NCBI RefSeq assembly: GCF_000234805.1
Contig: NC_016645.1
Span: 310,001-374,000, forward strand
DNA length: 64,000 nt
Direction: 5' to 3'
Source of the DNA: Pyrobaculum ferrireducens
GTDB taxonomy: Archaea > Thermoproteota > Thermoprotei > Thermoproteales > Thermoproteaceae
Part shown: positions 4,794 through 8,375 of the stretch, in pieces
Position numbering within the stretch: position 1 is the first letter of the stretch
How the letters are laid out: each line of letters opens with the position of its first letter
Position numbers and translations under genes: made by a program
Notes under the pieces: generated by a model
What the model was told of the DNA's origin: nothing
Databases searched by the model: none
The model's input: only the letters and a program-made list of their open reading frames with translations

Positions 4794-4803
4794 CTTAAAA
4801 ATA
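4794..4803 (+). promoter_or_regulatory. TATA box of the peroxiredoxin gene
   Basis: CTTAAAAATA centred near 4798 lies 25 nt before ATG 4823. An alternative upstream ATG at 4805 falls almost on top of the TATA box and cannot be on the expected leaderless transcript, so 4823 is preferred. Confidence 0.7.
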
Positions 4804-4822: not shown

Positions 4823-5476
4823 ATGACAGAGATAAAGGGTCCATACCTCGGAATGAAGATCCCGGAGGATCTGTGCTTCAACACCGACCACGGCCAGAAG
4901 TGCTTCAGAGACTACAAGGGTAAGTGGCTGTTGCTCTTCAGCCACCCCGCCGACTTCACGCCGGTGTGCACCACGGAGTTCGTAGCGTTTAGTAGGAAGT
5001 ACGAGGAGTTTAAGAAGAGGGGTGTCGAGTTGCTGGGCCTCAGCGTCGACACCACCTACAGCCACATAGAGTGGAAGAAGCAGATTGAGCAGGCCTTCGG
5101 CGTCAAGGTGCCGTTCCCGATAATCGCCGACGTGGATATGAAGGTGGCCAGCATCTTCAACGCCGTGCCGCCGGGCCAAAACCTCACTGTGAGGACCGTC
5201 GCTTTGATAGATCCCGACTTGAAACTGGCATGGTTCGCCGCCTATCCCTACACCAACGGCAGGAACATCGACGAGATACTGAGAGTCATCGACGCAATTC
5301 AGTTCTCCTACAAGTACGGCTACGCCACCCCCGCCGACTGGAAGCCCGGCGACCCGGTCATCGTGCCGCCGCCGGCGACGGCGGAGGCCGCCGAGAAGAG
5401 GCTTAAGGAGCCTGACATCGACTGTAAATACTGGTGGTTCTGTACAAAGAAGTACGAGCTAGTCGTCAAGGCCTAA
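4823..5476 (+). CDS. Peroxiredoxin (archaeal Prx6-like thioredoxin peroxidase)
   Basis: 217-aa peroxidase that reduces peroxides through a cysteine thiol. The active-site block HPADFTPVCTTEF places the peroxidatic Cys at about residue 49. Two further cysteines near the C-terminus (CKYWWFC, about 201 and 207) match the resolving pair of archaeal hexadimeric peroxiredoxins such as that of Aeropyrum. The start is set by the TATA spacing. A short internally deleted copy of this gene exists at 7031-7126, left by a local tandem duplication. Confidence 0.93.
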   Translation: MTEIKGPYLGMKIPEDLCFNTDHGQKCFRDYKGKWLLLFSHPADFTPVCTTEFVAFSRKYEEFKKRGVELLGLSVDTTYSHIEWKKQIEQAFGVKVPFPIIADVDMKVASIFNAVPPGQNLTVRTVALIDPDLKLAWFAAYPYTNGRNIDEILRVIDAIQFSYKYGYATPADWKPGDPVIVPPPATAEAAEKRLKEPDIDCKYWWFCTKKYELVVKA

Positions 5477-5865
5477 AACCAGTCAACAAGCTTTTTCCAA
5501 GTCTCCACCACATATTTCATCCTCCTATACCTGCCAGGGATTTATTTTTCAAGCTCCCCCTCTATAGGCCGCTTTCCACATTCGCCAAGGCAACCCCACG
5601 TCAGCATATATACAGCTTGCAGACGGCCGCCGACTTGTCCAACTAACATCCCCATGTCTAGCTTGAAGCGGTAGATAAATCAATCAAAAGCGGCGAACGT
5701 CGCAAAGAACCATGCAGTTCTCTACTTGAGAGATATCTTCACTGCGCCGCCTTATGCCACTTATTTAAACTCGGCGCCTTTTTCTTCATCTCCTACACGT
5801 ATTTTTAAAGAGCCTCTTATCTCAACTCTGGAGCGTGGCTCCACACGTCTCTAGTTGTGTGGAAG
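5473..5865 (-). pseudogene. Decayed copy of the 177-aa hypothetical gene found intact at 7123-7656
   Basis: Read on the minus strand, the 3' end still encodes RRMKYVVETWKKLVDWF-stop, against RRRVRYVYETWKKLADWF-stop in the intact gene. Further nucleotide matches occur around 5660-5740 and 5810-5865. The frame is broken repeatedly and the region is AT-enriched. It keeps the same tail-to-tail overlap with the peroxiredoxin stop as the other copy. It is a relic of a tandem duplication and has no coding capacity as it stands. Confidence 0.85.
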
Positions 5866-5990
5866 ATTTATCTATACCCCAGTTTACATCTATGTAGGTG
5901 CTACTGGCGAAAATAGCAATTACCACAGCCACCTCTTCGGGCCTCCCCACGCGCTTCATGTCTAGTTCTCGCCTAAGCCTCTATGTCGAT
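5866..5990 (-). pseudogene. Decayed 3' remnant of an SDR gene
   Basis: The minus-strand sequence is clearly related to the 3' end of the intact SDR gene (7644-7770): both share the segments around ATTACC...CAGCCACCTC.TCGGGC and the end region near the downstream gene start. Only roughly the last 40 codons are recognisable, with indels. Together with the preceding remnant it fills the 570-bp stretch between the peroxiredoxin gene and the next ORF. Confidence 0.75.
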
Positions 5991-6044
5991 GTTTTATCTT
6001 TTTGCTGTAAGTAAAATACAAAATAGGTGTGAAAGTGTAGTTAC

Positions 6045-7019
6045 ATGGTCAATAAATACACGGTGTATATCGCCGTAGTTGCTGTGGTTGTATTAGCAAT
6101 TACTGGCTATATGGCCTACGCAGGTAGAGAGGCCGCTGAAAGCTTCTACCCCACGGAGGCGGCCGGGCAGAAGGTAGAGTTCAATAGTTATGAGGAAGCC
6201 ACTCAATATATAAACAATTTCTTGAGGGGAGTGTCTGATTTTCTCAGTTCAAGGTTAAGAGCCGCGTTGTCAGAGAGTAACGTTAGGTATCTGAATAGGT
6301 CTAAGCTACGCGGCACCGCTGTTGAGCATCTTTTAAATCGCACAGTAGCTGTTGTAGAAGCTAATGGTAAAACGTATGCGGTGGCGCTTCCACAGGGCGT
6401 AACAAACCCCACTGAAAGATTTGAAGTGTATGATGTCGAAACTGGTAGGAGAGTGCCGTCTAGGACAGTTGTAAAAAGTAGAGTAACTGGTGAATATAAG
6501 GTACCTATAGATCAAAACACAACTATAGTAATAAATATACGCGGTATCATATATAAAATTAATATAGATGATCAATCACAAGTTCAACCGCTAGCAGTAG
6601 TCACCGTATACAACTACTACGGCGTTACGTGGTACTTCGGCAACCAATGGGCAACATCGGTATACGCCGCTGGCTACTTTGCTATAGATATGCAGACAGG
6701 CGTAAAGGATATACTACCAGCTGGCTGGTTAGACACAAATTACAATATTGGGCTAACTGTATGTTACAGAGATGCGCCAGGTAAGGCTTATTATTCGGCT
6801 AATTATAGATACGGAGCAGTGCAGACAGTGGCGGTCCACTCTAATTTCATGTGTCCGGGCGCTACATGGCTTTACAGCTATCCATGGATAGGCATAGACG
6901 GCGTAACTGGGCAGTGGATATATCCAAATGGGATTCCAGCTGACAAATCGTGGAGTATAACAAACTGTCAATGTAATAACGTACAAACTGTCTATCCTCC
7001 TACGTTTCCCGGTAAGTAA
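6045..7019 (+). CDS. Unknown membrane-anchored extracytoplasmic protein
   Basis: 324 aa, no family recognised. The N-terminus has a single hydrophobic helix (about residues 5-25) followed by a long extracellular-type region rich in Tyr, Trp, Asn and Gly, with three Cys in the last third. It resembles an exported, N-terminally anchored beta-rich protein. A TATA-like AAAATACAAAAT stretch lies about 28 nt upstream of ATG 6045. The gene is visibly AT-richer than its neighbours and lies exactly at the junction between two tandem duplicate segments, suggesting later insertion. It could be a surface or virus-derived protein, but nothing in the sequence settles that. Confidence 0.7.
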   Translation: MVNKYTVYIAVVAVVVLAITGYMAYAGREAAESFYPTEAAGQKVEFNSYEEATQYINNFLRGVSDFLSSRLRAALSESNVRYLNRSKLRGTAVEHLLNRTVAVVEANGKTYAVALPQGVTNPTERFEVYDVETGRRVPSRTVVKSRVTGEYKVPIDQNTTIVINIRGIIYKINIDDQSQVQPLAVVTVYNYYGVTWYFGNQWATSVYAAGYFAIDMQTGVKDILPAGWLDTNYNIGLTVCYRDAPGKAYYSANYRYGAVQTVAVHSNFMCPGATWLYSYPWIGIDGVTGQWIYPNGIPADKSWSITNCQCNNVQTVYPPTFPGK

Positions 7020-7030
7020 ATCCCCCAGTG

Positions 7031-7126
7031 GCATTTAGCCGAAAGTACGAGGAGTTTAGGAAGAGGGGCGTCGAGTTGCTGGGCCTCAGCGTCGACACCA
7101 ACTACGAGCTTGTCGTCAAGGCCTAA
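7031..7126 (+). pseudogene. Internally deleted fragment of the peroxiredoxin gene
   Basis: In frame, it reads AFSRKYEEFRKRGVELLGLS then VDTNYELVVKA-stop. The first part equals peroxiredoxin residues about 56-80 and the last seven residues equal its C-terminus, joined at a TAC codon present at both break points. The 5' third of the gene and about 130 internal codons are missing. It lies directly upstream, tail to tail, of the intact 7123-7656 gene, exactly as the full gene lies next to the decayed copy at 5473. Confidence 0.9.
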
Positions 7127-7656
7127 AACCAATCCGCAAGCTTTTTCCAAGTCTCATAGACGTACCTCACTCTCCTTCTAAATCGCCTTGGTAGCCACTT
7201 CTCCAGCTCCTCCAGCCCTCCTCTGTAGGCGGCGTAGGCGGCCCTCCACATGTACCCCGGCAGGCCGGCGTCTGCGTATACACAGCCCAGGGGCGCCGTG
7301 CCCCTCGCCGTCTTCTCCACCTCCATGCCGAGGTCTAGCTTGAAGCGGTAGACGAAGCGGTCGAATGCTGAAAACGCGGCGAAGAACCACGCAGTCTTGT
7401 CTTCTAGGGCTATCTTCACCGCGTCCTGGAACCACTGGTTTTGCCAAATAGTCCCTCTCCTGACCACCTCCCCCAGCTCTCTGAGGCTGACCTCCGCCGA
7501 GATGACCGGCCTACTTCTCCACACGCCGCCGTACGTCACCTCTGTGAAATACGCTGCCCTCTCCACCTCGGCGACTCTTATCTTCAAGACTCCCCTTATC
7601 TCAGCCCTAGACCTCAGCTCCACGTAGAATCCGTGTGGCAGATTTAACCATACCAC
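7123..7656 (-). CDS. Conserved hypothetical protein next to SDR
   Basis: 177 aa, GTG start, not recognised. It looks soluble and rich in aromatic residues and Arg, with an N-terminal half that could form a beta-rich domain and a helical, strongly basic C-terminus (RRFRRRVRYVYETWKK). The start overlaps the SDR stop by 13 nt, so it is probably co-transcribed with and coupled to that gene. That it was a real gene is supported by the diverged relic at 5473-5865, whose best conserved parts align in the same frame. Confidence 0.75.
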   Translation of the reverse strand: MVWLNLPHGFYVELRSRAEIRGVLKIRVAEVERAAYFTEVTYGGVWRSRPVISAEVSLRELGEVVRRGTIWQNQWFQDAVKIALEDKTAWFFAAFSAFDRFVYRFKLDLGMEVEKTARGTAPLGCVYADAGLPGYMWRAAYAAYRGGLEELEKWLPRRFRRRVRYVYETWKKLADWF

Positions 7657-8375
7657 CCGCCGTTGACGTCTATAAAGGCCCCGTTGATGTAGGAGGCCCC
7701 GTCGCCCACAAGAAAGGCGATTACCTCAGCCACCTCCTCGGGCTTCCCAACCCTCCTAATATATACCATGTTCCTCGCCCAGGTCTCTATATCCCCGGTC
7801 TGCGCTTTTTCGTGAAACGGCGTGTCTATAAGGCCGGGCAACACAGCGACGACTCTAATCCCCCGCGGCCCCAGCTCCTTCGCGAGGGCTCTGGTTAGGC
7901 CTAGGAGCCCCGCCTTGGCGGCGGCGTAGGCAAAGGCGCCTCTGCCGCCCCCCGTGTAGGCCGCCACCGAGCTTACATAGATCACGGCGCCCCCCTTCAT
8001 CAATGGCACGAAGAGCCTCGTCGCTATGTAGGCGCTGGTGAGGTTGAGATCTATCAAAGATCTCCAGTACTCCAGATCTGACTCCTCCAGCGTTCTGCGT
8101 TGCGGCAGGCCCCCGGCGTTGGCCACCAGTGCGTCTACCCTCCCGAAGGTACGGCCCACCTCGTCGGCGAACATCTTCATATCGTTCCACGACGTGGCGT
8201 CTGCCCTGCGGTAGAGGACGCGGACTCCGTGGCCCTCCGCCTCTTTAGCCACGGCGCGGGCCTGGGCCTCGCTCCGTAGATAGGTAAACGCGACGTCGTA
8301 GCCCCTCCTAGCCAGGGCCTTGACTGTGGCGGCTCCGATGCCGGTGGAGCCCCCCGTCACCACTGCCACGGGCAT
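7644..8375 (-). CDS. Short-chain dehydrogenase/reductase (FabG-like)
   Basis: 243-aa NAD(P)-dependent oxidoreductase with a classical SDR fold: cofactor motif TGGSTGIG at about residues 7-14, NAG motif (VANAGG) near 86, and catalytic Tyr/Lys in YAAAKAG at about 155-159 preceded by the Ser of VSSVAAY. The length is typical. Substrate cannot be read from sequence; 3-oxoacyl or sugar/alcohol reduction are the usual options. It diverges from the DUF429 gene across a 28-bp gap and is followed by the 177-aa gene in the same transcript. Confidence 0.9.
   Translation of the reverse strand: MPVAVVTGGSTGIGAATVKALARRGYDVAFTYLRSEAQARAVAKEAEGHGVRVLYRRADATSWNDMKMFADEVGRTFGRVDALVANAGGLPQRRTLEESDLEYWRSLIDLNLTSAYIATRLFVPLMKGGAVIYVSSVAAYTGGGRGAFAYAAAKAGLLGLTRALAKELGPRGIRVVAVLPGLIDTPFHEKAQTGDIETWARNMVYIRRVGKPEEVAEVIAFLVGDGASYINGAFIDVNGGWYG

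Follow-up and report, generated by a model that had tools for sequence, protein, structure and literature searches.

We found that two homologous units, each with a peroxiredoxin gene (Prx) set tail to tail against a 177-aa gene and an SDR gene on the strand of the latter, lie next to each other at 4823-5988 (unit 1) and 7028-8375 (unit 2) of a 64,000-nt window (positions 310001-374000 of the 2.468-Mb single-contig genome G000, whose nearest relatives are Pyrobaculum). The peroxiredoxin is intact in unit 1, and the 177-aa gene and SDR are intact in unit 2 (Table 1). This arrangement probably arose when another, divergent unit ended up next to the native one and the pair was resolved to one working copy per gene, with gene conversion in the peroxiredoxin part.

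The homology of the units is carried by four direct repeats, all collinear between them: 4982-5059/7028-7105 (90% over 78 nt), 5450-5526/7100-7176 (82%), 5647-5746/7324-7423 (73%) and 5916-5964/7717-7765 (78%). A protein search of the genome independently recovered the peroxiredoxin fragment of unit 2 (genome 317025-317114, window 7025-7114, E 2.6e-9), and a tblastn search recovered the decayed 177-aa copy of unit 1 (window 5476-5877, E 1.8e-19) with TGA, TAG and TAA stops; together these matches are far beyond chance, which rules out fortuitous repeats. Both units keep the CTAA stop overlap of the tail-to-tail genes (5473-5476 and 7123-7126) and a T-run after the peroxiredoxin stop. The first-pass annotation had described two repeated units (aligning 5473-5990 with 7123-7770), tail-to-tail overlaps kept in both, a full peroxiredoxin followed by a decayed 177-aa copy and SDR 3' end in unit 1, and intact versions of the latter two genes at 7123-8375 in unit 2. 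The repeats and protein matches confirm this description, with the remnant ending near 5988 and the intact genes read at 7123-7656 and 7644-8375. It had also given the peroxiredoxin fragment as 31 codons (7031-7126) with an in-frame internal deletion at a TAC common to both break points; the fragment measures 32 codons plus stop (7028-7126), and the deletion is as described, with 396 bp missing in frame and TAC at 5057-5059 and 5453-5455.

Table 1 Features of the two-unit locus, in window coordinates.
Feature	Position	Strand	Basis or remark
TATA-like element of peroxiredoxin, CTTAAAAATA	4794..4803	+	~25 nt before ATG 4823; read from sequence
Unit 1: intact peroxiredoxin, predicted 1-Cys type, 217 aa, PADFTPVC	4823..5476	+	Pfam, NCBIfam, PDB relatives
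Unit 1: decayed 177-aa gene copy	5473..5877	-	stops in all pieces, ~100 bp internal deletion; tblastn, alignment
Unit 1: SDR 3' remnant	5866..5988	-	matches SDR codons ~197-243; homology end same in G003
Gene between units: 324-aa protein, N-terminal hydrophobic segment, no family	6045..7019	+	
Unit 2: peroxiredoxin fragment	7028..7126	+	V54-Y79 joined to E212-A217, 396-bp in-frame deletion at TAC
Unit 2: intact 177-aa gene, no family or fold match	7123..7656	-	likely true start GTG 7623 (166 aa)
Unit 2: intact SDR oxidoreductase (FabG-like)	7644..8375	-	PF13561 1.1e-57
Unit 1 side of high-identity tail-to-tail block	5450..5515	.	identity to unit 2 drops sharply after ~5515
Unit 2 side of high-identity tail-to-tail block	7100..7165	.	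three linked sites, haplotypes swapped G000 vs G003

The intact peroxiredoxin matches Pfam AhpC-TSA (1.4e-29) and 1-cysPrx_C (2.5e-14) and, above its cut-off, the NCBIfam peroxiredoxin model NF009668. With its PxxxTxxC motif, it is assigned by these profiles to the 1-Cys/Prx6 type, and peroxidase activity is predicted; the spacing of the TATA-like element makes 4823 the preferred start over 4805. It matches the archaeal 1-Cys/Prx6-type peroxiredoxins PDB 5ovq and 2cv4 over nearly its whole length, keeps PxxxTxxC and shows nothing unusual, whereas a relocated copy in the sister genome G003 has K for the conserved Thr at position 46. A basic residue (K or R) replaces this Thr in extra copies of two separate lineages, namely the remote copy of G003 (L086:7406-8059) and the second peroxiredoxins of G004 (L097:7169-7816) and G009 (L098:6068-6715), while the Thr is kept in every other peroxiredoxin checked. 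These replacements possibly reflect parallel loss or change of function after duplication. G005 also has a second peroxiredoxin (L145, G005:C89:53500-55200), decayed and with many stops.

The 177-aa protein gave no Pfam or NCBIfam match and only a sub-threshold PHROG match. Its AF2 model is reasonable (pLDDT 77.5, pTM 0.79, with low confidence for residues 1-14), a comparison with the PDB returned no fold match (best E 0.17), and no relatives outside the genus were found among 31 genomes searched. In several species the gene is missing, truncated or relocated. The unit 2 copy of G003 has an in-frame TAG, and in G006 a single deletion at the tail-to-tail junction (L087:6680-6760) appears to shorten both genes, so that the peroxiredoxin would end near residue 191 and the 177-aa protein near residue 143; the 177-aa gene is thus dispensable in places. 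The unit 2 SDR matches PF13561 (adh_short_C2) over its full length (residues 11-241), and its NCBIfam subfamily matches fall below cut-offs. The AT-richer, unrelated 324-aa gene between the units had no place in the first-pass account; its product matched no family in Pfam and NCBIfam searches, and homologues are sited elsewhere in G006 and G015. A viral origin for it was considered and rejected: neither viral contigs nor phage records contain a match, and its PHROG match is sub-threshold only.

Comparison with other Pyrobaculum genomes gives the locus a polarity. The outgroup G006, which we take to be P. aerophilum (IM2), carries once each, in order, branched-chain transporter (liv) genes, the peroxiredoxin, the 177-aa gene, the SDR, a DUF429-like gene, an FAD oxidase and a binding protein, so that a single unit stands between flanking genes matching the outer genes of G000. 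This answers the earlier suggestion to look at this locus across the genus: one ancestral unit at the same site in G006 corresponds to two in G000 and G003. Locus L085 of G003 has the same two-unit layout and the same truncations as G000 at 93-96% identity, which rules out an assembly artefact and makes the arrangement older than the G000-G003 split. The event is therefore older than that split, and either younger than the common ancestor with G006 or hidden in it. G008 and G007 have one unit on the SDR side, and in G001, G004 and G009 the peroxiredoxin adjoins the DUF429-like gene directly, the middle two genes being absent. Other rearrangements were seen in G010, where the three-gene cluster is rearranged with the 177-aa gene inverted (L092:6714-9168), and in G002, where peroxiredoxin and 177-aa gene lie away from an SDR still at its native site (L090).

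The anatomy of the junction bears on how the genes were lost. In unit 1 the SDR is missing upstream of about codon 197, and in unit 2 the peroxiredoxin upstream of codon 54; the truncated ends point towards each other over the junction, at positions identical in G000 and G003. No peroxiredoxin homology was found before the position equivalent to 7028 in either genome, and the 194 extra nt that G003 has past the SDR break are not SDR (shuffled local alignment, p 0.12-0.37), which removes its longer spacer as a candidate for further SDR sequence. With truncations in this orientation, a complete peroxiredoxin and a complete SDR could remain without any decay, and from this anatomy the two losses may mark the breakpoints of the event and not a complementary decay that came afterwards. 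The 177-aa gene alone is present end to end in both units, decayed in unit 1, and is the only gene that clearly decayed as a full spare. The first-pass proposal of complementary loss, with a different gene kept in each unit, thus stands for G000 in that one intact copy of each gene remains and different genes are lost per unit, but the SDR and peroxiredoxin losses may be breakpoints; the tidy partition also fails in the sister G003, in which the unit 2 177-aa gene carries its own stop and a full unit-2-type peroxiredoxin sits elsewhere.

Divergence between the units is far from uniform along their length. The peroxiredoxin parts are ~90% identical and the neighbours ~64%: identity runs at ~85-95% in the peroxiredoxin pieces and the first 36 bp past the stop and then falls abruptly (18, 17, 16, 12 and 3 matches in successive 20-nt steps). 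For the 177-aa gene, unit 1 and G006 are 77.7% identical, unit 2 and G006 70.9% and the two units 63.6%; of the two copies, the decayed one is the nearer to G006. Among sites at which a single sequence out of three stands apart, G006 is the odd one at 11 and one of the 177-aa copies at 95; in the peroxiredoxin comparison, with window copy a and G003 copy b set against G006, the copies agree against it at 78 sites and the pattern is reversed at 53 (Fisher p ~1e-15 between the two ratios). Neither these ratios nor the sharp drop 36 bp past the stop are what equal divergence from a single event would give. The first-pass reading of a segmental duplication therefore holds as to homologous units and a single-unit outgroup, and fails as to uniform divergence along the unit and copies that have not exchanged sequence.

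The trees divide along the same line. In the peroxiredoxin tree the a+b clade has support 97/98, and a+G006 without b is rejected (AU p 2e-5). In the tree of the 177-aa gene and SDR 3' end, unit 1 joins G006 (support 85-92) and a clade of units 1 and 2 is 3-6 lnL worse; the AU test does not formally reject the latter (p 0.05-0.10), which makes any age for these neighbouring copies tentative. The SDR 3' piece alone shows no affinity of unit 1 with G006 (68.7%, against 84.0% for unit 2), as expected of a decayed piece. Faster pseudogene decay was rejected as the cause of the pattern, because the decayed unit 1 tract, at 3.8% difference between G000 and G003, has evolved more slowly than the working peroxiredoxin, at 6.6%, and because decay cannot move a copy closer to another species.

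Sequence exchange between copies leaves its own traces. At three linked sites just past the peroxiredoxin stop, units 1 and 2 respectively read G,A,A and A,C,G in G000 but A,C,A and G,A,A in G003; these three sites, and only these, indicate exchange between unit 1 and unit 2 at the window locus. In G003 a full peroxiredoxin of unit-2 type lies ~1 Mb away (L086:7406-8059) and carries ~114 nt of a unit-2-type 177-aa tail (87-88% to unit 2 vs 65-68% to unit 1). An AAG>AGG change at codon 64 is common to this remote copy and both fragments and occurs in no other copy. Against the native copy, the remote one has a dS of 0.53 in the first 240 nt and of 0.16-0.20 after, the latter below between-species dS. 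The two G003 copies (a and b) share seven successive derived sites at 531-559 (permutation p 0.006; maximum chi-square p 0.02), and an a-clade is rejected (AU p 0.002). From the dS contrast and the run of seven shared sites, conversion between the peroxiredoxin copies of G003 is well supported, the remote copy appearing to be partly converted by the native one. The remote copy also implies that a complete peroxiredoxin once stood beside a unit-2-type 177-aa gene, which weakens a pure breakpoint reading on the peroxiredoxin side.

The surroundings of the remote copy (L086:6707-10280) were also inspected. On one side of it is a ~600-nt stretch with many matches in the G000 genome, and on the other a TnpB-like gene that has several relatives there; ~2 kb away lies a tRNA-like sequence, and at the matching site G000 has a different, peroxiredoxin-free stretch.

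Under the history that we consider probable, a second three-gene unit would have been placed beside the native unit in the common ancestor of G000 and G003, either as a tandem copy dating from about the P. aerophilum split or as homologous DNA that entered from a related strain. The join would have truncated the SDR on the left and the peroxiredoxin on the right, with the 324-aa gene ending up in the junction, so that a complete peroxiredoxin and a complete SDR would have been present at once or shortly afterwards, the 177-aa gene being the only one doubled whole. The native (unit 1) 177-aa copy would then have decayed, and the peroxiredoxin remnant of unit 2 would have lost a further 396 bp. 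Conversion would have kept the peroxiredoxin stretch and the next 36 bp similar as the neighbouring genes drifted apart, lasting as long as there was enough sequence to pair. The end state would be one working copy of each gene, divided over two half-units. The data do not separate an old tandem copy from an incoming segment, and we lean slightly to deep divergence; no donor or ancient paralogue was found in any of 11 genus genomes.

A more specific form of the incoming source, in which a Prx-177aa-SDR segment of an unsampled relative introgressed through an unequal join, leaving native and foreign half-units, with the peroxiredoxin later homogenised, is a credible possibility that falls short of being probable. 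It would account for a unit 1-unit 2 divergence comparable with species level, for the grouping of unit 1 with P. aerophilum and for joins that cut opposite ends, and the G003 remote copy beside a TnpB-like gene and a repeated stretch shows that the gene moves. However, divergence from other species is no greater for the unit 2 SDR than for adjacent genes (dN 0.097 vs 0.091 for the FAD oxidase), this SDR keeps its native linkage to the DUF429-like gene, and the searches found no donor. Slightly more doubtful is a fuller version, in which the half-units stem from different lineages, the unequal join of a segment from an unsampled Pyrobaculum relative was enough to leave each end gene with one complete copy, and recombination went on swapping the short Prx/177-aa tail between the units without deleting the intervening 1.6 kb. 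If that were true, the geometry of a partial duplication or of an unequal introgression could produce, in a single step, what looks like complementary loss in prokaryotes.

The first-pass view, a plain tandem duplication of the complete unit after the P. aerophilum split followed by independent decay, of the peroxiredoxin in one unit and of the 177-aa gene and SDR in the other, appears unlikely. It fits the single-unit outgroup at the same site, the sister position of peroxiredoxin copies 90% identical, the persistence of a full unit-2-type peroxiredoxin in G003 and the AU result that keeps unit 1 and unit 2 as possible sisters. Copies of equal age should nevertheless diverge alike, and here the units differ by 36% and the peroxiredoxin copies by 10%, a contrast opposite to that between the unit 1 pseudogene and the peroxiredoxin across G000 and G003; the decayed 177-aa copy is nearer to G006 than the intact one, and the truncations face each other at the junction. 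It is most improbable that the peroxiredoxin fragment or the decayed unit 1 tract was kept for a function, such as a terminator or antisense RNA at the tail-to-tail overlap, as the T-runs and a fragment differing at 1/107 sites between G000 and G003 might suggest, because background divergence is ~4%, which makes 1/107 not unusual, and the decayed tract diverges at the background rate (3-7% per 150 nt), with no sign of constraint on it.

With a second, divergent unit and conversion in its peroxiredoxin part as the preferred history, the locus offers a small, well-preserved archaeal case in which three comparisons test a duplicate-then-lose story: with an outgroup that has one unit, with a sister genome bearing the same scar and with a third copy that has been relocated. 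It also carries two general cautions: genes cut short where duplicated units meet pass for reciprocal losses, and a repeat homogenised in part by gene conversion looks young there and old elsewhere.

Three known systems come close. In the duplication-random loss model of animal mitochondria (PMC5745709), a gene block is repeated in tandem, alternative copies are lost, and pseudogenes and spacer persist, all of which have counterparts here; however, gene order has barely changed at this locus, two of the losses may be breakpoints, and apparent age varies along the copies. The SNAP hypothesis of bacterial rearrangement (PMC7055797) holds that inactivation of a different gene per copy fixes a duplicated block, as the different inactivated genes of our two units recall; it concerns large blocks with essential genes under dosage selection, whereas the block here is ~1.2-1.9 kb. 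The archaeal paralogues mtrA-1 and mtrA-2 (PMC4632066) have a common part homogenised by gene conversion and adjoining parts that differ, as in our units, but both of those copies are functional and conserved, whereas one peroxiredoxin copy in the window is a 32-codon remnant. Set beside these systems, the locus is a fresh example of known duplication and loss combined with gene conversion rather than a new kind.
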